From positions 1 to 50,667 of the IMG/VR virus record IMGVR_UViG_3300021961_011345: a DNA stretch of 50,667 bases. One strand, given 5' to 3'. Numbering within the stretch: position 1 is the first letter of the stretch; each line of letters begins with the position of its first letter. The position numbers and the translations under genes were made by a program. Below are positions 2,966 to 46,265 of the stretch, piece by piece. Below the pieces are notes generated by a model. The model made no database searches. It worked only from the letters and a program-made list of their open reading frames with translations, and was not told the origin of the DNA. This stretch comes from a virus.

Positions 2966-3017
2966 ATTAATAAATATCAATTAACCTCCAAAAAGAAGGT
3001 TCTCACCGAAAATTACT

Positions 3018-3407
3018 TCAATTGTTCCATTCTATTTTTATCCATTTATTGTCGTGATTGTACTTGAAAGATCCGATATACTTTTTATTCCATTCACTTG
3101 GTGAAATCAGTGATAGAAATATTTTTTCGTCCGTGGAATAATAAAGGTGATAAATTTTTCCAATTACCGGCTCAAAACTAAACTTTGATCTATAAACCAT
3201 ATCGTTCCATTGATATTCATCAACAAGTTTTTCATATTCTTTTTTCAACTCCAAGAACTTATCCTCAAATTGTTGATTGACATTTATAACTCTTGGTTCC
3301 TTCCAATGTTCCATATTGGTGACCTTAATTGCTGGCGCACCAACATTACTACCATACGGTAATAACCCAGGGTTATCAGAAACATTATCAGGTTTTTTGT
3401 CACTCAT
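3018..3407 (-). CDS. DUF2452 (C1orf50-like) protein
   Basis: 129 residues. N-terminal NPGLLPYGSNVGAPAIKV is followed by a helical middle and a C-terminal GKIYHLYYSTDEKIFLSLI / SPSEWNKKYIGSFKY block. That last block closely matches what I remember of DUF2452, a family shared by bacteria, phages and eukaryotic C1orf50. The molecular function is not known. The start overlaps the stop of the upstream 107-residue gene by one base. Confidence 0.8.
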   Translation of the reverse strand: MSDKKPDNVSDNPGLLPYGSNVGAPAIKVTNMEHWKEPRVINVNQQFEDKFLELKKEYEKLVDEYQWNDMVYRSKFSFEPVIGKIYHLYYSTDEKIFLSLISPSEWNKKYIGSFKYNHDNKWIKIEWNN

Positions 3408-3730
3408 TAGTAGAGATCTATTTGTTTTTTAATTCTATCAAGAATATCTTCATTCATGATATTTTCATTAATTAAAATTTGTTCCAATAGGTCTTTTATT
3501 TCGTTCTTGGACTTTTCTTTTGATCTTTGTCTGTTTACCAGCTCAACTTGGTATAAATGATATGCAACCTCATCAACTTTTCTTAATTTATTAAGATATT
3601 TTTCAATTCGTTGGTCAAGTTTTCTATGTCTATCCATGTTGTAGATAGTTGGAAGAGCCTTGAACAATTCGTCCAATCTACCTTTTAGGTATTGAATTTC
3701 TCCGTACTTAATTATTTCTTGATCTGTCAT
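3407..3730 (-). CDS. Hypothetical helical protein (107 aa)
   Basis: Highly charged, mostly helical protein with likely coiled-coil segments (YLKGRLDELFKAL; KLDQRIEKYLNKLRKVDEV). No domain recognised. It starts with ATG at 3730 and ends overlapping the DUF2452 gene by one base, so the two are probably co-translated. Confidence 0.6.
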   Translation of the reverse strand: MTDQEIIKYGEIQYLKGRLDELFKALPTIYNMDRHRKLDQRIEKYLNKLRKVDEVAYHLYQVELVNRQRSKEKSKNEIKDLLEQILINENIMNEDILDRIKKQIDLY

Positions 3731-3739
3731 ATTATTATA

Positions 3740-3832
3740 TTAAAGGAAACCTCTTCCATTGAAAGTCATTGCGTTAATTTTTTCTTTCTCAAGAAATCTT
3801 AGATAGGTAAATAATTTTTTAATTAGTTTCAT
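3740..3832 (-). CDS. Very small protein (30 aa), tentative
   Basis: Short frame starting ATG at 3832 and ending TAA at 3740, translating to a basic peptide ending in MTFNGRGFL. It packs tightly between the neighbouring short genes, 9 bases before the 107-residue gene and 5 bases after the 28-residue one. The packing and the glycine-rich ending suggest a real micro-gene, but support is limited to that. Confidence 0.4.
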   Translation of the reverse strand: MKLIKKLFTYLRFLEKEKINAMTFNGRGFL

Positions 3833-3837
3833 TTTTT

Positions 3838-3924
3838 TTAAAATAGTGATATTAATATCATACCAAACAATATACCCGCAATCATTACAAATAACATTTC
3901 TATACCTGTATTATCTTTTTCCAT
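3838..3924 (-). CDS. Single-pass membrane micro-protein (28 aa)
   Basis: MEKDNTGIE followed by one hydrophobic segment (MLFVMIAGILFGMILISLF). Starts ATG at 3924 soon after the terminator at 3991-4016. No homologue recognised; one of several single-helix micro-proteins in the window. Confidence 0.45.
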   Translation of the reverse strand: MEKDNTGIEMLFVMIAGILFGMILISLF

Positions 3925-3990
3925 TGTACTTTCAAATTTTTGATTCTGTTTTCAAATCAAAATATAATATTATTTTCCAATTTAATCAAA

Positions 3991-4016
3991 CAAAAAACCC
4001 CACCTTTTGAGTGGGG
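3991..4016 (-). terminator. Intrinsic terminator (minus strand)
   Basis: On the minus strand CCCCAC (4016-4011), a seven-base loop, GTGGGG (4003-3998) and then six T (3997-3992). A GC-rich six-pair stem followed at once by a T run is a textbook Rho-independent terminator. It would end transcription arriving from the 31-residue and coiled-coil genes at 4027-4301, so the genes to its left need their own promoter. Confidence 0.85.
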
Positions 4017-4026
4017 ATTAACTATT

Positions 4027-4122
4027 TTATTTTTTATTTCTATTTTTGTACTTTTCTGTTATTTTAATAAGTCCAATAGAAAATAATGATCCGAGTGTAA
4101 TTGCTATAATAATTGTAATCAT
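4027..4122 (-). CDS. Single-pass membrane micro-protein (31 aa)
   Basis: MITIIIAITLGSLFSIGLI hydrophobic segment followed by a short Lys/Asn-rich tail. Its ATG overlaps the TGA of the coiled-coil gene upstream as ATGA, the coupling used all over this genome, which supports it being real. Last gene before the terminator at 3991-4016. Confidence 0.5.
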   Translation of the reverse strand: MITIIIAITLGSLFSIGLIKITEKYKNRNKK

Positions 4123-4301
4123 AATCCTGATAATCTATGAATCTCCAATTTCATTTGATCGTTTTTAAGTTGGAGTTGTTCTTCTTTTTTTTCAAGTTTA
4201 TCTTCCAAACGTAAGACCAATTCTTCGGTTTCTTTTCCTTGGATTCTTTTAAGTTCATCAAGAAGTGGTTTTACTTCTTTTAGAATTTCAACATTTCCCA
4301 T
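4119..4301 (-). CDS. Short coiled-coil protein (60 aa)
   Basis: Almost entirely Leu/Glu/Lys helix (ELVLRLEDKLEKKEEQLQLK), predicted coiled coil. Followed by an overlapping membrane micro-protein; the pair could form a complex, spanin-like in arrangement, but neither has a lipobox or signal peptide, so that is only a thought. Function unknown. Confidence 0.55.
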   Translation of the reverse strand: MGNVEILKEVKPLLDELKRIQGKETEELVLRLEDKLEKKEEQLQLKNDQMKLEIHRLSGL

Positions 4302-4351
4302 TTCAAAAATTTAAATATTATTGGTGTGACCAAGTTGGGGATCTTTTCCCC

Positions 4352-4924
4352 CTATGAATGAAAATTATGTAAATTTTCTTCCATGTCTTCTACCACTTTT
4401 AAACATTCTTCGAAAACTATAAAAGGGTAATCTTTAAATAACCATTGGATGATGTCTCCAAGATTTTCAAATAAATTTTTCAAATTAATTGCTTCATAAT
4501 ACGATCCACTAATGTCGTAATCTTTTTTAAATCTAAAGTTATCAAAATCTATTGGTACAAAATAATTTGAATCCCAATAAGGTGTTGCCATGCCATGTAG
4601 TTCCACTTTATTTTCGTTTGATACGCTCTCAAATAAAAAATTAACTGTTCCAACAAATGAATCGATTTCAAAAGTTATTCTGTAATCACCATCGCTTATA
4701 CCCTCGTTCCAGTAGTTTTTATTTCTACTTATAAAATACATACAAAGTTCGTAAAGGTCGTCTGAATCAAAATTATTGACAGGTATGTGTCCAATTAATT
4801 TTATGGCATCTTTCATAGATAATTTATATCTATACAAAACAGTTTGTAATCCATTTTTTTTTATAGATTTTTCAAATAACTGTGACAATGATTCACTTTG
4901 CGATTCGGAAAATAAAATTTTCAT
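4352..4924 (-). CDS. Hypothetical protein (190 aa)
   Basis: Begins MKILFSESQSESLSQLFEKSIKKNG, an N-terminus style (MKIL.SESQ) seen in proteins of large Bacteroidetes phages, then a mixed alpha/beta body rich in Asp and Phe. No catalytic motif seen. It lies four bases after the endolysin stop in the direction opposite to transcription, so it is co-transcribed just downstream of the endolysin. Confidence 0.65.
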   Translation of the reverse strand: MKILFSESQSESLSQLFEKSIKKNGLQTVLYRYKLSMKDAIKLIGHIPVNNFDSDDLYELCMYFISRNKNYWNEGISDGDYRITFEIDSFVGTVNFLFESVSNENKVELHGMATPYWDSNYFVPIDFDNFRFKKDYDISGSYYEAINLKNLFENLGDIIQWLFKDYPFIVFEECLKVVEDMEENLHNFHS

Positions 4925-4928
4925 TTTG

Positions 4929-5813
4929 TTATAAACTTAATAACATGTCGATAAGTTCTTGTTGTGGAAACATATCTGACTTATCTTTTCTCGTGTTAGT
5001 GTGTGTCCACATACCTTTTATCTTTCCGTAGTAAGCGTCAGAATTGAATTCGAAACCTGCGGCACCTTTGCTTTTTATCTCTTGTACCAAACCTTTTCTT
5101 ACATCAATATTATCTCTCTCAGCGATAAATAAAATAAATGATTTGAGTGTACTGATTTGCTTCTCAGAATATCTATGATAAAATTTTGATCCTCTGAATG
5201 GTTGTTTTAGTTCAACAATTTGAAGTGGGTTTGCTTTTTGTCCTGTATAAGTTAAACCATTTTTAATTGGTCCAAAATTACAAACTTCAATACCTACTGA
5301 ATGAGTATGCATGTGTTGTGATCCATTGTCTCCTAAGTGCCAACCGTAAGCCCCCTCAGGAAAACATTGAACAAGAGTTCCATCATATATGTCGTTACCG
5401 TTGAACACGGATTGTCCTCCCATCACAAACTCTGTCCCTACTCTTCCTCGAGTGTCGTTATTCCACATCCTAATTACAGAATAGGGGTCGTGTCCTCCAG
5501 CAGTATGGTGTAAAAACAAATATTCTTTTTTTGTTGGTCCCACCAAATACTCATCTTTATCCATGTATTTTTGATCTATGATCAATTTTTCGGTAGAAAT
5601 AACTGTTTCAGATAAATCAGTGGTAATATAGAAACCCATGGCATTCCATGTTTTTTCACCAACAATACCATCTGCAACTAATTTATTTGCACTTTGGAAT
5701 TTTTTTACGGCCTCTTCCGTTTTTGGGCCGAAATCACCGTCTACTTTGATTTTTAGGTATTTTTGAAGATCCTCTACTTCTTTTCCTTTAGAACCTAATT
5801 TGAGTACTTTCAT
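4929..5813 (-). CDS. Endolysin: peptidoglycan-binding domain plus N-acetylmuramoyl-L-alanine amidase
   Basis: 294 residues, two domains. Residues 1-60 are a PG_binding_1 domain (LKLGSKGKEVEDLQKYLKI, VDGDFGPKTEEAVKKFQ, DGIVGEKTWNAM). From about 95 comes an amidase_2 type catalytic domain: LFLHHTAGG with the first zinc His, GWHLGD, and THSVGIEV, then the C-terminal MWTHTN..KDKSDMFP with the last His and Lys/Asp. It would cut the bond between N-acetylmuramate and L-alanine. No signal peptide, so it would need a holin. It is separate from the membrane-anchored glucosaminidase at 20791-21336. Confidence 0.92.
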   Translation of the reverse strand: MKVLKLGSKGKEVEDLQKYLKIKVDGDFGPKTEEAVKKFQSANKLVADGIVGEKTWNAMGFYITTDLSETVISTEKLIIDQKYMDKDEYLVGPTKKEYLFLHHTAGGHDPYSVIRMWNNDTRGRVGTEFVMGGQSVFNGNDIYDGTLVQCFPEGAYGWHLGDNGSQHMHTHSVGIEVCNFGPIKNGLTYTGQKANPLQIVELKQPFRGSKFYHRYSEKQISTLKSFILFIAERDNIDVRKGLVQEIKSKGAAGFEFNSDAYYGKIKGMWTHTNTRKDKSDMFPQQELIDMLLSL

Positions 5814-5858
5814 ATCTATCGTTTAATAATAAATATGCGTCAATTAATAAAATTGGTT

Positions 5859-6140
5859 TTACTTTTGATCATACCATTTCCAACCAAGAAATAATTTTGT
5901 AAAATATCTGTGAATTACATTTGGCTTAACTTCAAAGAAAACATGGAAACTTTTACCAATTTTATAATAACCAACTTGTTTTGATAACCCTTTAATATTT
6001 GGTACCTCTTCAGATCTCATAACAAACTCTTCATTCAAATCAAACCTTTCTTCTTTTTTCTTTCGAGGTTTGTATGTTCTTTTTTTATCAGAACTTGATT
6101 TGTTATTTCTATACGTCTCTTTAATAATTACTTTTTCCAT
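5859..6140 (-). CDS. Hypothetical basic protein (93 aa)
   Basis: The first 32 residues are Lys/Arg-rich (KKRTYKPRKKKEER), the remainder a small aromatic domain ending KLFLGWKWYDQK. Could bind nucleic acid through the tail. No family recognised. Confidence 0.55.
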   Translation of the reverse strand: MEKVIIKETYRNNKSSSDKKRTYKPRKKKEERFDLNEEFVMRSEEVPNIKGLSKQVGYYKIGKSFHVFFEVKPNVIHRYFTKLFLGWKWYDQK

Positions 6141-6164
6141 ATTATAATAATACTATTTTAACTT

Positions 6165-6401
6165 TCATTGTAAATGTTCCAACTGATCTTCGTTAAAGAT
6201 GTGAAGAAGTCCGTACTCATCCATTTCGCCAACCACTCGAACATTTCCTTCTACGGTTTTAAATACCGATACAATAGTACAAGGAAACTTATACCCTTTT
6301 AATTTTACTGCTTTATCGCCTACTTGGAATTTTGTTTTGTTTACTTGGGGGAAATCTCCATCTGATAATTGTGGGTCATTCCAATCATTTTTTATTTCCA
6401 T
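6165..6401 (-). CDS. Hypothetical small beta protein (78 aa)
   Basis: Contains FQVGDKAVKLKGYKFPCTIVSVF and VRVVGEMDEYGLLHIFNEDQL, the spacing of a small SH3-like/KOW-like beta barrel. No specific family assigned. Short gap to the dehydrogenase gene. Confidence 0.55.
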   Translation of the reverse strand: MEIKNDWNDPQLSDGDFPQVNKTKFQVGDKAVKLKGYKFPCTIVSVFKTVEGNVRVVGEMDEYGLLHIFNEDQLEHLQ

Positions 6402-6409
6402 AATTTTAT

Positions 6410-7258
6410 TTATTCTGAAACAGCCCTACCTATTTGTTTTGTCCAATCCAAATCTGTTCTGACTTCTTTATTTTTTTTTATTGTTGCTTTCAACATGATT
6501 GCGTTTACTCCTGAATTTTCCGCCAAGAAACTTAATGCCTCAATATCTTTTGGAAAACAGTGTCCTCCAAAACCAAAATCACCGTCAGGTCCTGGAACAG
6601 ACCAATGACTATAACCTAATCTTTCGTCTTGTTTTGCATATTCTATCACTTTATCATAGTCAATATCAAGTTGTTGACATATTTGGAACATCTCATTAGC
6701 AAAAGAAACTTTTGTTGCTAAAAAGGTGTTAGTTAAATACTTGATCATCTCGGCAATGGTGGAGCTTGTTTTTATAATGGGGACTTTGGGAAATGGTTTG
6801 TGAAACAGTTGAGTAACTTTTGAAGAATAAGGTCTTTCCGCCCCTATAATTATTCTTTTTTGATTTTTATAATCATCAACCGCATTTGCTTCAGTGAGAA
6901 ATTCAGGATTGAAAGCAATAAAAATATTATTAAAATTTTTATTCAATCTATCTGTTGTTCCAGGTGGAATGGTGGATTTAAGAATGACAATGAAATCTTT
7001 TTTATTGTGTATTTCTACACTTTTAGAAATTTCTTTCAAACAATTTTCGACAATGGACAAATCACACTCCCCATTTTTTTTCATTGGTGTTGGTAAACAC
7101 AAAAATGTTTCGTTAACTTTTTCAATTAAACTTTCGAGGGTTTCTTCAGTGCAATTTTTATTTATGTCGAAAGTTTTAACATCAAAATAATTTTTCATAA
7201 CCTCAAAAACCGCATTTCCAACAAAACCTTGTCCTATTATACCTAAAGTTTTTTTCAT
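6410..7258 (-). CDS. Short UDP-glucose/GDP-mannose dehydrogenase-like enzyme lacking the C-terminal domain
   Basis: 282 residues against about 390-450 for the family. The Rossmann loop GQGFVG is at residues 9-14; LPTPM, KSTIPPGT, FNPEFLTE and IKYLTNTFLATKVSFANE follow as in UgdH/WecC. The catalytic cysteine motif GFGGHCFPKD is present near residue 233. The protein stops soon after it, so the usual C-terminal sugar-nucleotide-binding domain is absent. Family enzymes oxidise C6 of UDP-glucose or similar with NAD+. Short forms occur in phages. Substrate unknown; it may act with the sugar island at 23-35 kb. Confidence 0.85.
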   Translation of the reverse strand: MKKTLGIIGQGFVGNAVFEVMKNYFDVKTFDINKNCTEETLESLIEKVNETFLCLPTPMKKNGECDLSIVENCLKEISKSVEIHNKKDFIVILKSTIPPGTTDRLNKNFNNIFIAFNPEFLTEANAVDDYKNQKRIIIGAERPYSSKVTQLFHKPFPKVPIIKTSSTIAEMIKYLTNTFLATKVSFANEMFQICQQLDIDYDKVIEYAKQDERLGYSHWSVPGPDGDFGFGGHCFPKDIEALSFLAENSGVNAIMLKATIKKNKEVRTDLDWTKQIGRAVSE

Positions 7259-13965: not shown

Positions 13966-15549
13966 TTAACGTAAAACTGTTACAGTAAATGTATGTTGTT
14001 CATTTAATTTACCATCTGAGATGTTTAATACTCCGTAATACACTCCATCTGCTACTTTACCTCCATCCCAATCATTTTTGTAATCTGAGTTCTGATAGAC
14101 TATTTTACCCCATCTATTTAAAATGGTTATTGAGCGATTATCCCAATCCAGTAGATTTTTAATTACAAATAAATCATTTTTATTATCATTGTTTGGAGTT
14201 ACAACATTAGGAATAATTATTGGTTTTGGGCCTAAAACAGGAATTGAATCTGGACCATATCTGTCTTCTGGTAATTCAAGATCACCTGGAGGTGGAGGTG
14301 GGGGGCAAGGTCCTACTTTAACTAAAATAGTATCAAATTCAGCCATCGGAATGCCACATTTATTAATTAATGTATTCCCGTCATTACCTTTTTTACTGTA
14401 TAAATAATAATTACCAGCTTGATTGAATGGATATAACATTACTATTCTAACTGAATCAGTCTCCAGGTCAATATTTAACCCTGAATAGATGTTTACAATA
14501 GATTGAGGTTGACTATTATTGGTGTTGGTCATTCTAAAATCAATACCATTGATTGAAGTACCATCCAAGTTAATATGAAACTTTAAAGTAAAAGCACTAT
14601 CACCACAATCTACTTCTACATAAGGTAAACCTGTGATTGTATCAATTGGGTAAGACAAGGGATCATATTGTACACCTGAAGTAGCAGCGGCATTGCAATT
14701 AGGAGAGATACTAATCATCATATCTCTAGAAGCTGAACCTACCTTGTACCATACTTGATAAAGTGAATCAAATCTATACTCTTCAACTAATACAGATAAA
14801 ACATCAATCTCATTTTGAGTAGGTAGGAATGAAATTAATCCTGTAGCAGGATCTAAATTAAAGTAGGTTGATGTTACAGGTTGAGTTGCTGAATAACCCG
14901 GATCAAATGGGATATTGGTTTGATTTGGGTAAACATTTTCTCTACAATTGATAAGTGAATAAACAACTGAGTCACCATCTTCCTCAATTGCGGTTTGTTT
15001 CCAATTAAACGGATTACCTACACAAAACGCTCTAACAGGTTCACTTACAAATACAGGTGATGAATTTTGCCCAAATGTAGCATTATCCAGTAACGCGTCA
15101 AAAAAGAACCCATCATTACCTACAGTACCATTTGAAGCAAATATATTAGTTATATTACCTGGTCGGCAACAATTCTCGTACCAAAATCTAAATGTAGAAC
15201 AGTTACCAGGTAAGATTACATAACCAACATACATGTAAACCTCTAATGTTTTAGTTGTTGGTCCTGGGTTAACACAGTCAAACAAAGTTGGTGAGATTAT
15301 TCCTGAACCAGGAACTAAATTCATAGGTACATTTATATCAGCGTAACAACCAGAGCTTACAGTTACTTGATCAGTAGTTGCCAGAGTTGTACCGGATACA
15401 TCCCTATAAACACGTAAAATTACCTTATAATGGCGTTGAATTCCGGTTGAATCTCCAATATAGCGGTATTGAATATCACCACCCGCTAAGTGCGTTGCCA
15501 TAGAACTAAAGCTAAGTAACAGCGCTATAAAAACTAGTATTTTTTTCAT
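13966..15549 (-). CDS. Secreted protein with gliding-motility-associated C-terminal domain (type B T9SS sorting, CHU_C type)
   Basis: 527 residues from ATG 15549; the frame runs on to a TTG at 15597 but the signal peptide (MKKILVFIALLLSFSSMA) starts at the ATG. The mature protein begins THLAGGDIQYRY, the usual start of this Bacteroidetes family, followed by Cys-containing beta domains, a poly-Pro stretch (GPCPPPPPPGD) and a C-terminal domain: IPNVVTPNNDNKNDLFVI, ITILNRWGKIVYQN, WDGGKVADGVYYGVL. That domain is the gliding-motility-associated sorting domain, which directs export by the type IX system. In a phage this would need the host's secretion machine. Probably an adhesin or surface protein. 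Confidence 0.88.
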   Translation of the reverse strand: MKKILVFIALLLSFSSMATHLAGGDIQYRYIGDSTGIQRHYKVILRVYRDVSGTTLATTDQVTVSSGCYADINVPMNLVPGSGIISPTLFDCVNPGPTTKTLEVYMYVGYVILPGNCSTFRFWYENCCRPGNITNIFASNGTVGNDGFFFDALLDNATFGQNSSPVFVSEPVRAFCVGNPFNWKQTAIEEDGDSVVYSLINCRENVYPNQTNIPFDPGYSATQPVTSTYFNLDPATGLISFLPTQNEIDVLSVLVEEYRFDSLYQVWYKVGSASRDMMISISPNCNAAATSGVQYDPLSYPIDTITGLPYVEVDCGDSAFTLKFHINLDGTSINGIDFRMTNTNNSQPQSIVNIYSGLNIDLETDSVRIVMLYPFNQAGNYYLYSKKGNDGNTLINKCGIPMAEFDTILVKVGPCPPPPPPGDLELPEDRYGPDSIPVLGPKPIIIPNVVTPNNDNKNDLFVIKNLLDWDNRSITILNRWGKIVYQNSDYKNDWDGGKVADGVYYGVLNISDGKLNEQHTFTVTVLR

Positions 15550-15554
15550 GTTAA

Positions 15555-15586
15555 TAAATATAAAGAGGGGCTTTCGCCCCTCCAAC
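15555..15586 (-). promoter_or_regulatory. Hairpin-bearing promoter/terminator element F
   Basis: Minus strand: GTTG (15586-15583), 20-base spacer that contains GAGGGGC-GAAA-GCCCCTC (hairpin 15582-15565), then TATATTTA (15562-15555) and the ATG of the gliding-domain gene only five bases further. The stem of seven pairs closed by a GAAA tetraloop, followed by CTTTATATTTATT, is a good terminator for the upstream 502-residue gene. The hairpin core is identical to element G at 18070-18101. Confidence 0.65.
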
Positions 15587-17095
15587 TTAATACACAAATA
15601 CTTTCTCTAGCTTACCACTATATTTAATTACATATAATCCTTTAAGTTTACCATAAGGTATATTCTTACCCACGTAAATTAAATTACTATGCCAATCATA
15701 AATCTCGTAAGTAACATCTAATTGATCTTCATTAACTGAGATATTACCAATTAAATTATTGTCGCTAAAATCCGCTCCTGTATTGAGGATACTGTTAGGA
15801 GCTGGTCTATAATCGCCTGTTATGTAATTATAAGGGTTCATTAATAACCCACTAGTAGAAACGACTGTATCATTGTTATTGGCAAAGAACCAAGTACCAG
15901 CATCAAACGAAGGATTAGTTACTCTACTTACATACTTTGTTACACAGCCTGCTATTACATTATTTCTAAATCTTAAAGTACCTAACATAGCATTTACTTC
16001 AGTAACTGTACCGTCAATGTGTACACCTTCTTTAAAGTCCATAAACACTGAATTGTAAACTTTTAATTCAGTATTTCTTCTTAAACGAAGTGCTCTTCTA
16101 AATTTAGGATCAACGGTAGCCTGTAAGTTACCTCTTAGTGGTCCAATAGCTGTAATGTTAGAGAATACAGCTGCTGTTTTAGGTCCGTTGTTAGATCCAG
16201 CTCCATCGTTATCACTCTCAAATCCTTCAGAGGTTGAGCTAGCTGATTGGTCAGCGATAAAAGGATCTCTAACAATCAAACCAAACTGTACTTTACCTCT
16301 GTAACCAAAATCAGTATCAAAATCATCATCTAGGTTTCTGTAAGAAACTATGTGCTTGCAATTTACAGTACCTCCAAACCATTCAAACGCATCATCGTTA
16401 GCAAATGATACTTGAACGTAATCAACTACAGTACCGCTACCAACTGAACCAAATGTTATACCGTTGATCTCCTTGTCAGGTTGGTATGCATATCCTCCAA
16501 ATTCAATTCTAATGTATCTTAGAACTCCTGAAGTATCTTCGTCGTTATTACCTCCGTACTGAGTGTTCTTAGATGTAGGTAGGCCTTCAACATATCCAAT
16601 ACCTGCAGGAGTACCTGAAGCAGCATTAGCTGGTAGGTTGTTTTGAGCTTCACCTAACAGAACTATTCCTCCCCAGTCACCGATATTCCTTTGACCCGGA
16701 GCGGCATTTGAAGCAAATACAATTGGACTATTTACTAATCCGTCTGCAAATAATTTACCTTTATTAGTTACAATTAAAGCAGAACCTGCTGCTGTCTTAT
16801 CAAATAAAACTACTGTACCTGGTTGTATAGTTAAGTTAGCCTTTACATACAACGGACCTTGAACCAAGTAAGTCTTATTATTAGTCCAAGTAGTATTTAC
16901 TGTAATCGAATCTGAAACTGTATCAGTAGCAGCTGGGTAAATTGTATGTTGTGGGTCAAAATTAGTCCAAGAATCTGTCCACATTGGAACAGGAGCTGAT
17001 TCAAATGCTCCTCTATATACTGTAGGAGTCCAAAATGTACTTTGTGCAAACAAACTTGTTGCAACTAAAGAAAATAGTAACACTAGTTTTTTCAT
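15587..17095 (-). CDS. Secreted beta-helix-like protein with T9SS type A-like tail
   Basis: 502 residues with signal peptide MKKLVLLFSLVATSLFAQ. The body holds motifs of a large Bacteroidetes exported family: SPIVFASN, QRNIGDWGGIVLLGEA, SGVLRYIRIEFGGYAY, NGITFGSVGSGTVVDYVQVSFANDDAFEWFGGTV, YRNLDDDFDTDFGYRGKVQFG. These right-handed beta-helix-like proteins usually end in a T9SS sorting domain; here the end (VTYEIYDWHSNLIYVGKNI, GLYVIKYSGKLEKVFVY) looks like a short type A domain. Likely exported to the host surface. The ending overlaps hairpin element F. Upstream is a divergent regulatory region. Confidence 0.85.
   Translation of the reverse strand: MKKLVLLFSLVATSLFAQSTFWTPTVYRGAFESAPVPMWTDSWTNFDPQHTIYPAATDTVSDSITVNTTWTNNKTYLVQGPLYVKANLTIQPGTVVLFDKTAAGSALIVTNKGKLFADGLVNSPIVFASNAAPGQRNIGDWGGIVLLGEAQNNLPANAASGTPAGIGYVEGLPTSKNTQYGGNNDEDTSGVLRYIRIEFGGYAYQPDKEINGITFGSVGSGTVVDYVQVSFANDDAFEWFGGTVNCKHIVSYRNLDDDFDTDFGYRGKVQFGLIVRDPFIADQSASSTSEGFESDNDGAGSNNGPKTAAVFSNITAIGPLRGNLQATVDPKFRRALRLRRNTELKVYNSVFMDFKEGVHIDGTVTEVNAMLGTLRFRNNVIAGCVTKYVSRVTNPSFDAGTWFFANNNDTVVSTSGLLMNPYNYITGDYRPAPNSILNTGADFSDNNLIGNISVNEDQLDVTYEIYDWHSNLIYVGKNIPYGKLKGLYVIKYSGKLEKVFVY

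Positions 17096-39033: not shown

Positions 39034-39034
<1 letters not shown>
38774..39034 (-). CDS. Hypothetical protein (86 aa)
   Basis: NILIAERVPPGDRWKLLNGEKIYDSLTEVLNAYYQASNSKPTAFRLEPLKSKLYLIT then a charged tail with KKYDLYGDFE. No family recognised. Sits between groEL and the gp44-like gene with overlaps at both ends. Confidence 0.55.
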
Positions 39035-40930
<1,896 letters not shown>

Positions 40931-40934
<4 letters not shown>

Positions 40935-41218
40935 ATGTTGTATGCTTGGTTTAATTTATTAATAACAGACTCATAATTGTCAATATAAGCTTGAATTGAG
41001 TCATAACTTTTACTCATAGAATCATTTTTAGCTATTGCTCTAAGAGCAGCAGATAAAGTATTATAGTATCCTACAACCTGAGAATAGTCATTACCACTTT
41101 CTCCAGCTACAATTCCTTTATGGAGTACATATCCATAATCATCTAGTTGGAGGTAGTAAGGTTCTAATACAGGATCTTTAAGATATCGAGTATATGTTTT
41201 TTTAGCTTTTTTATTCAT
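40931..41218 (-). CDS. Hypothetical protein (95 aa)
   Basis: KTYTRYLKDPVLEPYYLQLDDYGYVLHKG, VVGYYNTLSAALRAIAKN, SYDSIQAYIDNYESVINKL. The 'yLKDPvLePYYiqLDdy' opening looks conserved among Bacteroidetes phages but has no function I know. Starts the short run to GroES. Confidence 0.55.
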
Positions 41219-41235
41219 AACAATATTTTATAATA

Positions 41236-41251
41236 ACCTATAAGGGCACCT
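41236..41251. repeat. Left arm of inverted repeat flanking hsp20
   Basis: ACCTATAAGGGCACCT on the plus strand. The right arm at 41756-41770 reads AGGTGCCCTATAGGT, the reverse complement with one A fewer. The two arms lie 504 bases apart, one downstream and one upstream of the hsp20 gene. Confidence 0.6.
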
Positions 41252-41267
41252 ATTAATATAACAAAAC

Positions 41268-41699
41268 TTATTTAATCTTCAAAGCTTTAGGTTTAGCTTC
41301 TACAGCAAATGGAATTGAAATTTTCAATAGACCATTTTTCATTTCAGCGTCAGCCCCTAGAAGATTAAATTTAGATGCCACTTTATAACCTAAATTGAAA
41401 GAACGACGTGCTATACCCTTATGTAGGTAATTACAGTCATTTACATCACAACACTTATCGTCTTCATGTTTGTTGTAAGATATTCTAAGAACATCTCCTT
41501 CGATATTGATTTCAATATCGTTTTTTTCAAGACCAGTACATGCAACTTCAAAGTGCAAGCCGTCTTTGTTCTCGTAAATATCTACTGGGTGGGGGATTTT
41601 AGCCTCAATGGCTGGTTGGAAATTTAATTCTGATCTGAAAAAATCCTTAAATAACAGATCAAATGGTGAGAGATGTCTCTCTGTAATAAATGTATTCAT
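41268..41699 (-). CDS. Small heat shock protein Hsp20 (alpha-crystallin domain)
   Basis: 143 residues: HPVDIYENKDGLHFEVACTGLEKNDIEINIEGDVLRISYNKHE, RSFNLGYKVASKF and ADAEMKNGLLKISIPF are the alpha-crystallin core with the GLLKI motif. A DCCDVNDCNY-like cysteine patch (CCDVNDCNY) lies before RRSFNL. Prevents protein aggregation. Marine T4-like phages also carry hsp20. An AAGGATT box precedes the ATG. Confidence 0.9.
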   Translation of the reverse strand: MNTFITERHLSPFDLLFKDFFRSELNFQPAIEAKIPHPVDIYENKDGLHFEVACTGLEKNDIEINIEGDVLRISYNKHEDDKCCDVNDCNYLHKGIARRSFNLGYKVASKFNLLGADAEMKNGLLKISIPFAVEAKPKALKIK

Positions 41700-41783: not shown

Positions 41784-42524
41784 TTACTGATCTGCTTTCC
41801 TTACCATGTAGTAAGTACTAGTCCAATTCTCTCCTTTAAATACTAATTTGAGTAGGCCTTGAGTGTTTAGACTCATATAAGCCTCATCAGCATCTTTATT
41901 GTTAGAGAGAACTGTCTTAAGCATTTCAGAATTGAATGGAACTTTAAAATCCAATACATCTTCCTCAATTGTAGTGCCGGGAATGATGTATTCAATTTTA
42001 TTTGTATGGGATGAAGCATCTCCAAATACTAAAGTAAGTACTTGTTCATTATCAAAATTTCTACCTACAACAAATGATACTAGTTCACTTTGTAGGGCAT
42101 TTTTAGCTCTAATAATGGCTGAGATAGCATCTGATTCTAAAGTACATTCAACTGTATAGTTGTTTGGATCTTTAACTGTACCTGGTTCTTGAATCAACAT
42201 TAGGTCAGATAAAGTATAACTTAAAGTATAATTTACATCACCAATAACTAAACGAGTAAATACTTTACCTATTTTTTCTAATTGTAAATCTAGATCACCT
42301 GAAGTAATGGCTAGTAGCTTATCAAGTTGAGGAGTATCATAAACAGCAATCTCACTATCTGCAAGATCAAAATCAGTATGAATTACCTCACCAATCATGT
42401 CTTTAGTAGGAGCATTAAACTTAATGTTTAATTGCTTATTTTGAGTAGTCCATTTGACAGACTCAATCATTCCATTTAAGGAATATTTAGAGATAATTCT
42501 CTGTAATTCGCTTTTATTAATCAT
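41784..42524 (-). CDS. DNA polymerase sliding clamp (T4 gp45-like)
   Basis: 246 residues of beta-alpha clamp repeats: LQRIISKYSLNGMIESVKW, EVIHTDFDLADSEIAVYDTPQLDKLLAI, LMLIQEP and a C-terminal domain with VPFNSEMLKTVLSNNKDADEAYMSLNTQGLLKLVFKGENW. Pattern as in gp45 of T4-related phages, which form a trimeric ring. Located between the polymerase C-half and hsp20, transcribed in the same direction. A one-helix difference from T4 cannot be judged by eye. Confidence 0.87.
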   Translation of the reverse strand: MINKSELQRIISKYSLNGMIESVKWTTQNKQLNIKFNAPTKDMIGEVIHTDFDLADSEIAVYDTPQLDKLLAITSGDLDLQLEKIGKVFTRLVIGDVNYTLSYTLSDLMLIQEPGTVKDPNNYTVECTLESDAISAIIRAKNALQSELVSFVVGRNFDNEQVLTLVFGDASSHTNKIEYIIPGTTIEEDVLDFKVPFNSEMLKTVLSNNKDADEAYMSLNTQGLLKLVFKGENWTSTYYMVRKADQ

Positions 42525-42526
42525 AA

Positions 42527-43456
42527 CTAGAAACTAAAAAATAGGTTTCGATATGGGTTTAAATTTAATGACCAACCCAGGTCATGGTAAAATCCTTCAA
42601 GTTTAGATTCCAAAATTGACTCAAATGATCGGTTTTTATCAGCATATTCTTCTAATAAGGTACGAATCTTATCTGGCATGTCAAAATCTAAGAAAGCAAG
42701 TGCTTCAATTTTGTATGGGTTATTTTTTAGGTAAATCCATTTTACTTTATCACCCTGTACAATTCTAGAGTGTTTTTTATCTAAGCCCCAAAATGTAAGT
42801 AAATCATTATATTTAACAGCTGCTTTAATTGCAGCTGGTGCTCCTTGAGCTATAACTGAAAACATTTCACCTGGTTTAGGTTTACGAGCAATATATTTGT
42901 CTAGTGTTTTAACTGAAGTTGGATTACCTAGTACAGTTAAGTCTAGATCTTTTGACATTACATGCTCCCTAAACTTTAAGAGCAAATCATCAATTTCAGT
43001 TTGTTTAGCTCCTTTAAGTGCTTTTTCTAGGATTGAATTAAAGAACTTCCCAAATATAGGAGGAAAGTTAGCTTTCATAAACTCTAGACCTTTAATATCT
43101 AGCTCGTTTTTAATTACACCTTCTTTTTTAGTAATCCATTGAGCATATCGTCTTGTACTTCTAAAGTAAGCTGAACGGATAATACATTCAGTTTTCATTT
43201 CAAAACGATGTTCAGGAACATTAAATGCTTCTTGAGCTAATGTAGTGTAATAATTTGTAATTAGGTCTTGATATTTGAGGGCGATTTCTTCGAGTTTATT
43301 ATCTCTTTCTTCCTCATCCATCTCATCAAAATTAGGATAGAGGTGCCTAAGCAAAGGTTCAGCATTATAATAGTTAGAGTCTGTATCAACATAGGCACAA
43401 AAGTTCTTGTCTTCTTTTTTACAGATAAACCAAGGTGTATTTTCTAATTGTATCAT
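42527..43456 (-). CDS. DNA polymerase family B, C-terminal piece (palm motif C, thumb)
   Basis: 309 residues. Motif C is at residues 22-26 (YVDTDS with Asp24 and Asp26), followed by thumb-type sequence and an ending NLFFSF that could be the clamp-binding tail. Motifs A and B are absent; they are in the separate gene at 43918-45642. Together the two proteins (574 + 309 = 883 residues) equal T4 gp43 (about 900). The start codon overlaps the stop of the Smr gene (ATGA), so translation is probably coupled. The MIQLENTPWF start shares IQL with the C-end (GEIQL) of the N-half. Confidence 0.93.
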   Translation of the reverse strand: MIQLENTPWFICKKEDKNFCAYVDTDSNYYNAEPLLRHLYPNFDEMDEEERDNKLEEIALKYQDLITNYYTTLAQEAFNVPEHRFEMKTECIIRSAYFRSTRRYAQWITKKEGVIKNELDIKGLEFMKANFPPIFGKFFNSILEKALKGAKQTEIDDLLLKFREHVMSKDLDLTVLGNPTSVKTLDKYIARKPKPGEMFSVIAQGAPAAIKAAVKYNDLLTFWGLDKKHSRIVQGDKVKWIYLKNNPYKIEALAFLDFDMPDKIRTLLEEYADKNRSFESILESKLEGFYHDLGWSLNLNPYRNLFFSF

Positions 43457-43677
43457 TCTACTACTACTATTTCTCCTAAATTGTGAGATGAAATATAATA
43501 CTTAAAGTCGTATTGATCAAGGAAATCCATAACTAATTCTTGCATTTTTTGTGAGTTGCCTGTTATAATGTTTACTCCTTTATGGTCAAAGCCTTGCCAG
43601 AAGAAAAAGTCAATTAACTTATCTTCAACATCAGCATGTTTAATTCCATGCAAATCAAGCGTTGTCTTCTTCTTCAT
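43453..43677 (-). CDS. Smr-domain protein inside the split polymerase gene
   Basis: 74 residues consisting of one Smr domain: TLDLHGIKHADVEDKLIDFFFWQG carries the LDxHG motif, then VNIITGNSQKMQELVMDFLDQYDFKY, where the usual HGxG is TGNS. Smr domains (MutS2 C-terminus, free-standing forms) bind branched or nicked nucleic acids and some nick DNA or RNA. It sits between the two polymerase halves with coupling overlaps at both ends. Confidence 0.8.
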   Translation of the reverse strand: MKKKTTLDLHGIKHADVEDKLIDFFFWQGFDHKGVNIITGNSQKMQELVMDFLDQYDFKYYISSHNLGEIVVVE

Positions 43678-43918
43678 TATGCATTACACCCTCAACTTCA
43701 CCTTTTTGGTTAAAGATTTGTTCTGGGACTGTAATATAGAATTTTTCTCCTTTGATACTAAAACGTCCTCCTTGTTTAAGCATTTTCTTAAAGAAGGTTA
43801 TTTCTTTATCTGACCATTTTTCAGATTTATTAATTACAGTATCCTTGTCAAGTTTTTCACCAGCACTGAAGATAGTGACACCTGCACGAATTGATTGTTT
43901 TGAGATTTTATGTTCCAT
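43655..43918 (-). CDS. Small protein inside the split polymerase gene (87 aa)
   Basis: KSEKWSDKEITFFKKMLKQGGRFSIKGEKFYITVPEQIFNQKGEVEGVMH. The charged helix followed by RFSIKGEKFYI is of unknown family, though it resembles small proteins of T4-like phages in style. ATG overlaps the stop of the polymerase N-half (TAATG); the end overlaps the Smr start by 23 bases. No nuclease motif seen. Confidence 0.65.
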   Translation of the reverse strand: MEHKISKQSIRAGVTIFSAGEKLDKDTVINKSEKWSDKEITFFKKMLKQGGRFSIKGEKFYITVPEQIFNQKGEVEGVMHNEEEDNA

Positions 43919-45642
43919 TACAATTGAATTTCTCCTTTTAGTACTTTGTTCATGTGTGTGTTAGCAAACAAAGCTGATTCTTGAATAATACGTTGACCAG
44001 TCAAAGTAATACTCTCACTTAAAATTACATTACCATATCTAAAACTACCAAGAGCAGTTGCACCATACAAACTATTTAGCAAAATTTTCATTGTATGTTG
44101 CATTAGGTGAAATTTCTCCCCATCTGCCTTGTTTCCAGCCTTATAAGCGGCTTTCATTTTATTTTTATAAATAACTCGTTCTTCAAACCATTTCGCTAGA
44201 ATTGTTTTTAGTACTGAGTCAAAATCTGTTCTATACATAACCCCATTAGCTGAAATTGATAAGTTGGAAGTTTCAATTAAGTCAATAACTTCTTTAACTT
44301 TCATTTGAGCTAATTTGCGTTTTGAATTTTGAACATTTAAAATCCTATCAGGGTCCATAACTTTTAAATCATTTAGACCATAACGATTATTAAATATTTC
44401 TTTCCCTTCTACTACTATCTTCTCATCAGGAATCAATATACGTCCAACAAGTGTCTCTTTACCAATATTAAGCGACATTATGATGGAAGGATACAGTGAA
44501 GTTAAGTCCTCATCAAACATGTACTTGTATAGACCTGCTTGAGGGCAGAACAGATAACCACCCGCGTAATTCTTTTTAGTTATAGGATTACGATCCCTAG
44601 CAGGTGGAATAATACCTTGAGACAATAGGTAAGCGGAAATAGCACCATCATGAATCAAACTGTTTTTATAAACGTCTGAGTATCTAATTTTACCTTTGTG
44701 GGCTAGGTTCTTTGTTAAAGGTAAGTACTGGAATTTCTCATCTAGTGCTTTTAAGATTTCAACATCTCGAAAGTTGTACTCAATAAACTTTTGTTTGTCT
44801 TCTTTAAACAAACGATCCAAACTTCCATCATATTCAATCTTTTCTAGATTAGCATATTTTTTACCTAGGTAATCGAGTTTGTAAGATGGTTCATCTTTAA
44901 AACTAAACTTTTTATGCAGTTTCATATAGTCTAGAGATTCTAGACCTGCAATATCTAACCAACGGTGATCATTCCATTGTGATTCATCTCTAACCCATCC
45001 TATTGGGGATAACATACTAGCTACCTCTTGATCGAATATATTACACATTCGGTAATATAGGTAAGGTATATCGAAGTAGTCGCTGTTATAACCGACTAAT
45101 ATGTCTGGGTTAATAGTGCGAATTGCTTCTAGGAACTTCATTAGAAGTTCTTGTTCACTTTTTAAGGGAATAATCTTTCTATTTCCTTCAGTAGTTTCTT
45201 CTAATTCACCTTTTTGATCTAGAATTAAGATGACCCATTCATCTTTTTGTTTGTACCACCAAGCAATTGAGGTAACAGGTTTAGGAGCACTTCGGATATA
45301 ATCCTCAGTTAATGCTCCTCCCATTTCAATCTCAATATCAAAGAATATTTCTTTATGGCTAGTTGAGGGTTCATCATTAGTTCCATATTTGTCAATTAGG
45401 AACCTTTGATAAGGCTTAATGTCATGAAAATGAAGTTTTTCATTATCTCTAGACCACTTGGTTACCTTACGGAGTGATTCATGACGTAGACCTCTAATAT
45501 TAGGATTAGCATCTATGTCATCACACTCTTCGTAAGCGTAATAATTCCAAGTTAGTGTTTTGTAACCTTCATCATCCCATAAATGGATCTTATAATTATT
45601 AGAATCCTTTATAGGCTGAGCATGACATGCTTTATAACTCAT
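43918..45642 (-). CDS. DNA polymerase family B, N-terminal piece (exonuclease, fingers, palm motifs A and B)
   Basis: 574 residues. 3'-5' exonuclease motifs: ExoI FFDIEIE (Asp102, Glu104), ExoII VGYNSDYFDIPYL (183-194), ExoIII YNFRDVEIL (289 on). Polymerase motif A DLTSLYPSI with Asp379, motif B KILLNSLYGA (519-528). The protein stops 27 residues before the palm Asp pair would occur; motif C is supplied by 42527-43456. It ends GEIQL. No frame break or stop-codon readthrough signal is seen at the end, so a genuine two-subunit polymerase is likely. Confidence 0.95.
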   Translation of the reverse strand: MSYKACHAQPIKDSNNYKIHLWDDEGYKTLTWNYYAYEECDDIDANPNIRGLRHESLRKVTKWSRDNEKLHFHDIKPYQRFLIDKYGTNDEPSTSHKEIFFDIEIEMGGALTEDYIRSAPKPVTSIAWWYKQKDEWVILILDQKGELEETTEGNRKIIPLKSEQELLMKFLEAIRTINPDILVGYNSDYFDIPYLYYRMCNIFDQEVASMLSPIGWVRDESQWNDHRWLDIAGLESLDYMKLHKKFSFKDEPSYKLDYLGKKYANLEKIEYDGSLDRLFKEDKQKFIEYNFRDVEILKALDEKFQYLPLTKNLAHKGKIRYSDVYKNSLIHDGAISAYLLSQGIIPPARDRNPITKKNYAGGYLFCPQAGLYKYMFDEDLTSLYPSIIMSLNIGKETLVGRILIPDEKIVVEGKEIFNNRYGLNDLKVMDPDRILNVQNSKRKLAQMKVKEVIDLIETSNLSISANGVMYRTDFDSVLKTILAKWFEERVIYKNKMKAAYKAGNKADGEKFHLMQHTMKILLNSLYGATALGSFRYGNVILSESITLTGQRIIQESALFANTHMNKVLKGEIQL

Positions 45643-46265
45643 TATTTAAAGAATTGCTTCAGATCTGGTTTGAAGTAATTAATTGATTTCATTACCTTGC
45701 GGTCTCTGCTACGATATACAACGTACTTGTCAGCAACCTGTTCATAGTGACAAGGTTCACCTTGTTCTTGGGCTCGTACTTTAACAGTCTTTTGTGCCTC
45801 TTCTTGTGTAGAGCAAGCTTTTGAAAGATTTGATGCCTGTACTTCCATATAGGCGGGCCAAATTTTATCCTTAAGACCATGAAGCATAGCACCGTTCCCA
45901 ATGGATACATAAGCAATGTCACACAACGCATCCAGAACTTCCACGATGTCTTGTTTTTCGCAAGCTTGTTTATACTCCTCAAGTTCTTCCAAAACGAAGT
46001 TGTAAACAAAGTCCCATTCACTTTTGGCTGGAATTGTTGGTACATAATTGTTTGGTTTATTCATTAAGCTGTTGAACTCTTCAACCTCGCTGACGAATGG
46101 TACATATTGTGAATTTAACAAATTTGTAATCCTTTCTGCGGTAGCTTCAGCCCAATCAAATTCAGGATTACGAGTATCGCTATCTCGATCTGAAAGTGAG
46201 CGAAGCATACCAATGCTTTTAATCAGCTCAATGATAATTAGTTCTTTAAATTGAGACATGCCCAT
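45642..46265 (-). CDS. MazG-like nucleoside triphosphate pyrophosphohydrolase
   Basis: Middle region VEEFNSLMNKPNNYVPTIPAKSEWDFVYNFVLEELEEYKQACEKQDIVEVLDALCDIAYVSIGNGAML contains the EExxE...ExxD metal motif of all-alpha NTP pyrophosphatases (MazG-like). It would remove modified NTPs or (p)ppGpp-type nucleotides. An extra N-terminal helix (residues 1-60) and a C-terminal basic tail are added. Possible second ATG at 46259. The end meets the polymerase start by a one-base overlap. Confidence 0.78.
   Translation of the reverse strand: MGMSQFKELIIIELIKSIGMLRSLSDRDSDTRNPEFDWAEATAERITNLLNSQYVPFVSEVEEFNSLMNKPNNYVPTIPAKSEWDFVYNFVLEELEEYKQACEKQDIVEVLDALCDIAYVSIGNGAMLHGLKDKIWPAYMEVQASNLSKACSTQEEAQKTVKVRAQEQGEPCHYEQVADKYVVYRSRDRKVMKSINYFKPDLKQFFK

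Follow-up and report, generated by a model that had tools for sequence, protein, structure and literature searches.

A T4-type DNA polymerase inherited in two pieces across a clade of uncultured phages, with changing cargo genes at the junction

Split replicative polymerases have mostly been reported as isolated cases. The T4-type family B DNA polymerase of Aeromonas phages 25 and 44RR2.8t is produced from two neighbouring genes, which in phage 25 are separated by an endonuclease gene; their products, 43A and 43B, co-purify and are active (PMC2988022). Another essential enzyme, the ribonucleotide reductase NrdA of Aeromonas phage Aeh1, is broken by the insertion of the homing endonuclease gene mobE, and its pieces reassemble (PMC2988022). 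In phage vB_PaeM_MIJ3 PolB is encoded in two open reading frames (ORFs) with a gene between them and a split intein (PMC6892783), and most members of a lineage of MEP401-type OM43 phages have a DNA polymerase interrupted by a small ORF of unknown function (PMC10580990). The archaeal family B polymerase occurs in two pieces in Methanobacteriales and Nanoarchaeum (PMC4104785). Here we describe a family B polymerase that is split at another site and inherited in this form throughout a diverse clade of uncultured phages. We started from positions 1 to 50,667 of the IMG/VR record IMGVR_UViG_3300021961_011345; this whole stretch of 50,667 nucleotides is called the window below.

The polymerase lies in a run of four genes at 42527-45642 of the window, the features of which are as follows.

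43918..45642, minus strand: N-half of a family B DNA polymerase, 574 aa (exonuclease, palm motif A, fingers, motif B), assigned by PHROG 262, Pfam DNA_pol_B and exo1, and alignment with RB69 gp43.
42527..43456, minus strand: C-half, 309 aa (motif C DTDS, remaining palm, thumb, C-terminal peptide NPYRNLFFSF), assigned by PHROG 262 and by a profile compared with RB69 gp43.
44062..44076, minus strand: motif B NSLYG, the last conserved catalytic motif of the N-half (sequence and alignment).
43376..43387, minus strand: motif C DTDS, the first catalytic motif of the C-half (sequence; invariant in 38 C-halves).
43418..43456, minus strand: N-terminal extension of the C-half, MIQLENTPWFICK, clade-specific and not present in unsplit polymerases (alignment).
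43453..43456, minus strand: ATGA stop/start overlap at the C-half start, kept in 83/101 loci whatever gene precedes.
43655..43918, minus strand: 87-aa cargo gene, O87 family (family and profile searches, AlphaFold2 (AF2) model).
43453..43677, minus strand: 74-aa Smr-like cargo gene, LDLHG ... ITGNS (Pfam Smr, weak for the window copy).

The N-half matches positions 56-568 of PHROG 262 'DNA polymerase' (E 9e-110) and the C-half positions 565-842 (E 9e-42). These matches are successive and far beyond chance, so the two proteins are consecutive parts of one enzyme. The N-half carries the exonuclease motifs FFDIEIE, NSDYFD and YNFRDVE and the palm motifs SLYPS (motif A) and NSLYG (motif B), and it aligns with residues 51-612 of RB69 gp43. 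A profile of 38 C-halves meets RB69 gp43 from residue 608. The break site corresponds to RB69 gp43 residues about 608-612, which places it in the palm, past motif B (564) and ahead of motif C (621). DTDS occupies residues 24-27 of the C-half, so that 23 residues precede motif C, nearly the number (about 22) given in the original prediction, which had been made from the letters of the window alone. With the exonuclease and motifs A, B and C in order and homology along the full length of gp43, the split enzyme is of the T4 (gp43-like) type. The predicted positions of the four ORFs and their overlaps also proved correct: the N-half stop shares one base with the start of the 87-aa gene (TAATG), the 87-aa and Smr genes overlap by 23 nt, and the Smr stop overlaps the C-half start by 4 nt (ATGA).

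The Methanothermobacter PolB, too, is broken between motifs B and C; the split archaeal enzymes, however, are cellular, have no cargo site, and their state is attributed to erratic intein excision or trans-splicing. Split gp43 genes in T4-related phages are indeed known, as had been remarked, but 43A and 43B of the Aeromonas phages are separated at another site (RB69 residues 512/521, between motifs A and B) and their genes are not linked by stop/start overlaps. A homing endonuclease gene in the break is usual for enzymes encoded in pieces, although not universal: 44RR has none, and neither has the window. The clade described here also differs from the Aeh1 nrdA case, since most of its gaps have no endonuclease gene, its split is clade-wide and its cargo changes. 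The MEP401-type phages belong to a different lineage (Zobellviridae-related). In the literature covered, which left out most subscription journals, we found no report of the window clade or of a phage break at this site. The novelty lies in where the gene is broken, in the fixation of that break clade-wide and in the series of cargo at the junction.

Two scans of IMG/VR gave 160 related loci, among which 101 distinct junctions were readable. The polymerase is split at the identical residue in all 101. The gap between the halves ranges from -4 nt (23 loci; ATGA, halves out of frame) to 2687 nt, and in 24 loci the halves are adjacent, with no intervening DNA. A pattern scan for such zero-gap junctions returned 42 contigs; the halves are in frame in none of them, and the N-half stop and the C-half start form ATGA in 41. 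No insert is therefore needed for the split, which the zero-gap contigs have as well. A break about 23 residues from the catalytic DTDS has stayed unrepaired in 42/42 zero-gap contigs, though a slight shift of frame could join the halves into one gene. Purifying selection acts strongly on both halves, with a ratio of nonsynonymous to synonymous substitution rates (dN/dS) of about 0.04 for the N-half and 0.03 for the C-half. Six long contigs (96-170 kb) have no PolB other than the split enzyme, and no PolA above the cut-off. In the tree the split clade is monophyletic, its 86 tips being sister to two syntenic unsplit relatives, L359 and L360. Judging from these comparisons, the conserved feature is the inherited clade-wide break and not the insert of the window. 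The C-terminal tails of the N-half are longer in L019, L043 and L145 than in other clade members, which indicates that extra residues are tolerated at this new end.

L359 and L360, the nearest unsplit relatives, were reached with a profile of the 87-aa family. Their neighbourhoods resemble that of the window, where the polymerase genes are flanked as follows.

41784..42524, minus strand: sliding clamp-like gene directly downstream of the C-half (labelled by its position and its match to the gene downstream of PolB in relatives, not by a profile).
45642..46265, minus strand: MazG/PRA-PH-type nucleotide pyrophosphohydrolase gene upstream of the N-half (Pfam PRA-PH, E 2.6e-8).

L359 has an intact polymerase of 862 aa, 39% identical to that of the window, near a MazG-type gene and the clamp gene. 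The L360 enzyme (42% identity) is cut by the contig end and has motifs B and C in one frame; it is accompanied by genes for the clamp, hsp20, groES, groEL and the clamp loader. The window itself has phage-borne groEL and groES near an hsp20 gene (39034-41699), a group retained in the unsplit L360. One ancestral ORF is now two while unsplit homologues exist, as in other genes in pieces. In a search by DNA pattern for a close unsplit gene, all the genes recovered were distant (25-31% identity), while both halves of the pattern occur in 83/101 split loci; blastn of a divergent locus against phage records gave no match.

The search for uninterrupted relatives, which had been proposed as a check, allowed the junction to be compared. 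It had been suggested that joining the halves at a shared IQL restores an ordinary polymerase, as though the insertion had repeated a short target. The distance from NSLYG to DTDS is 56-58 residues in unsplit enzymes and about 71 with the halves joined at IQL. The surplus of about 14 residues is due to a short tail added to the N-half and a head added to the C-half. The head has the clade consensus M[IK]xLExTPW[FW]IC, and unsplit polymerases do not have it. Moreover, both ends vary across the clade (ITL, IKL or VEL in the tail; MKHLE or MINLE in the head). We therefore rule out target duplication at IQL, as the tails and heads are variable and the unsplit relatives have neither of the new ends.

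We consider it very probable that the clade has a fixed two-subunit replicative family B polymerase and that the junction between its genes is a translationally coupled site for cargo. The gp43-type gene of the clade ancestor would have been broken in the palm between motifs B and C (RB69 about 608), most likely through insertion of an element of the homing endonuclease type. Comparison with the unsplit enzymes shows that each half has gained a short new terminus with its own stop or start, and the break is now inherited throughout the clade. A single run of overlapping genes would give the halves as two proteins, which would have to associate to complete the palm active site. In an AF2 model of the C-half alone the thumb is confident and the palm part is not, as expected if the palm needs the N-half. 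The junction is now a gene boundary, where cargo cassettes come and go with ATGA or TAATG overlaps, and translation from the C-half start would remain coupled to that of the gene before it.

In 82% of the 101 loci the C-half and the gene before it overlap by exactly 4 nt, start over stop, and in 10/101 by 1 nt. The 4-nt overlap spans 12 kinds of preceding gene, and the genes found before the C-half include the N-half, Smr, DUF2452, DUF6165, CysK-like, cytidylyltransferase and HNH genes. Among 1017 other gene pairs of the same loci the 4-nt overlap occurs in 15.6%. Shine-Dalgarno-like motifs stand before 31/101 C-half starts; at N-half starts (3/86) and clamp starts (0/97) they are rarer than at random positions (16%). 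The C-half start is likely to be translationally coupled to the preceding gene.

Cargo at the junction is diverse. There are 26 cargo sets among the 86 tips, with at least 36 changes on the tree, and the cargo can differ between polymerases that are 95-98% identical. Gap contents were determined from clustered gap ORFs, some of the gene names resting on a reading of the sequence only. Besides the 87-aa and Smr families they include DUF4254/DUF6165-type and DUF2452-type genes, a KdsA-like/HAD-like/transaldolase block, a mannose-6-phosphate isomerase-type cupin, a cytidylyltransferase, a cysteine synthase-like gene, a dTDP-sugar epimerase, an NAD epimerase, methyltransferases, a glycosyltransferase, a GIY-YIG homing endonuclease and an HNH/endonuclease VII-like gene. 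The KdsA-like/HAD-like/transaldolase block lies in the gap of L037-L041, L045 and L047; its gene content suggests sugar-metabolism cargo. Nucleotide identity between the window and L005 is mostly 83-98% in the gap and 63-85% in the N-half, which is consistent with cassette exchange. In a parsimony reconstruction rooted with L359 and L360 the zero-gap state changes 8 times and the 87-aa gene 7 times. The root is ambiguous for both, and parsimony thus does not choose between an empty and a filled gap for the first split state.

Several points weigh against the reading as a whole. The association and activity of these halves are inferred, with 43A/43B of phage 25 as the precedent. The data do not show a homing origin of the break, only later endonuclease insertions. 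The contigs are incomplete, so the lack of a second polymerase or of 87-aa and Smr homologues is not proven. The ATGA counts across loci are not phylogenetically independent. Finally, the flanking boundaries carry cargo as well (29-32% of the MazG-N and C-clamp boundaries exceed 100 nt, compared with 76% of the N-C gaps), and the junction may simply be one more cargo-tolerant boundary.

The last point leads to the most serious competitor, ordinary mosaicism. It accepts the two-subunit enzyme and disputes coupling alone: the junction would be just another intergenic boundary and its ATGA overlaps neutral by-products of compact genomes. Overlaps of -4 and -1 are indeed the commonest kinds genome-wide, and the cargo at both neighbouring boundaries fits such a view. 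However, the high frequency of ATGA at the C-half start relative to other gene pairs holds across unrelated preceding genes, and of the three boundaries the N-C gap varies most. We regard mosaicism as a possible but clearly less probable explanation than a coupled cargo site.

A second alternative concerns the two genes in the gap of the window. The 87-aa protein, the Smr protein or both could be an accessory subunit or assembly factor, or Smr could be a mobile gene of a non-classical kind and the cause of the split. Purifying selection acts on both genes, and the 87-aa gene lies between the halves in 66 of the 80 loci found by its profile, several more being cut by contig ends. The 87-aa protein has no relatives in Pfam, PHROGs, the PDB or phage records; its AF2 model (pLDDT 80) had no match in a Foldseek fold search. 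The window copy of Smr matches Pfam Smr (PF01713) weakly, with E 0.0085 and 16.7 bits against a curated cut-off of 25.7, while 15/20 members of its family match at E <= 0.1 (best 1e-5). Against a role in the enzyme, neither gene was found in eight zero-gap contigs of 18-113 kb, apart from a weak 21-residue Smr-profile match in G008 (E 6e-4), which was disregarded. Smr is present in just 29/101 gaps. It is truncated in L003, the polymerase of which is 98% identical to that of L004, with no change in the flanks. In the unsplit relatives the 87-aa gene is elsewhere, beside groEL (L360) or about 9 kb from the polymerase (L359). Gap identity above that of the flanking N-half, as between the window and L005, is expected for exchanged cargo. 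Because of the zero-gap contigs, the truncated Smr of L003 and the 87-aa gene outside the break in L359 and L360, both genes appear dispensable, and we read them as changeable cargo, neither parts of the enzyme nor the cause of the split. The predicted roles of Smr as a homing gene or needed subunit are rejected on these grounds, a subunit role of the 87-aa protein is unlikely, and the alternative as a whole is very improbable. The insertion idea survives in part: a gene insert does sit in a split polymerase and a mobile-element origin is plausible, but the insert of the window is changeable cargo.

True endonuclease genes occur at the junction in other lineages, which also speaks against Smr as a homing gene. 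There is none in the gap of the window, and among the relatives only L087 and L133/L134 have one. An HNH/endonuclease VII-like gene is inserted before the C-half of L087 (8262-9104). Compared with L013, the 87-aa/Smr stretch and both halves of L087 are 90-100% identical except at the beginning of the C-half, where the first ~105 nt, which contain motif C, are a different version directly beside the added gene. A GIY-YIG homing endonuclease gene directly follows the N-half, the tail of which is changed, in L134 (2318-2995), and the same gene is found in L133 (7698-8375). The N-half tail of L133 has diverged from that of L126 beside this gene; a similar divergence between L129 and L127, which have no endonuclease gene, makes the case weaker. 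These loci fit present-day homing at the junction, and a homing origin of the first break is plausible.

Rejoining of the halves by group I intron splicing, by an intein or split intein, or by programmed frameshifting is still less credible. Introns, inteins and split inteins are known in phage polymerase genes (PMC6892783, PMC12363816). One two-piece polymerase, that of the 484 kb huge phage LR756508.1 (4364-7417 and 10423-12288), has a Hint/intein-like segment at motif B and an intein-like segment at motif C. It is broken in the same interval as in the window clade (Mel-JY01 residues 553/564), with 3 kb and several unrelated ORFs between the halves. This polymerase groups with the intact Mel-JY01 enzyme (support 0.92), so the break is probably independent; no relatives of LR756508 were found in IMG/VR. 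In contrast to MIJ3, neither window half has an intein or Hint match. The Rfam group I intron was not found in the window or seven relatives, 461 nt is too far for a frameshift, and in the 24 loci with no intervening DNA the stop and start overlap. These null searches and zero-gap loci rule against intron, intein and frameshift. A pseudogene in decay or an artefact of assembly has a negligible chance: nothing beyond the break itself favours it, whereas the same arrangement occurs in many independent samples (L001, L002 and L004, independent metagenome contigs with 97% identity, have the same four genes as the window), dN/dS is low, all motifs are intact, and long contigs have no other PolB; the assembly error that had been named as a possible refutation is thus not the explanation.

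The loci form a natural series (zero gap, one gene, many genes, an endonuclease gene) for studying how a broken essential gene is kept, and the same series bears on how translational coupling shapes where phages store auxiliary genes. A bolder idea, which we hold only tentatively and think rather unlikely, is that selection keeps the split, as cargo between two essential, mutually dependent, coupled subunits would lie in a protected dock. Indels breaking the chain would then stop C-half synthesis and be purged, and well-formed ATGA cassettes would be expressed and retained, with the polymerase as a bracket domesticating auxiliary genes.

A protein of the window (13966-15597) has a CHU_C type IX secretion signal domain, which is unusual for a phage. 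Two of the four matches in genome collections are contigs in metagenome-assembled genomes of Flavobacteriaceae. Because of this domain, these contigs and the scarce Shine-Dalgarno-like motifs, the host is likely to belong to Bacteroidota, probably to the flavobacteria. A distant contig, L201, has another two-ORF polymerase (3001-7081), which is broken after motif C with a gap of ~1 kb.
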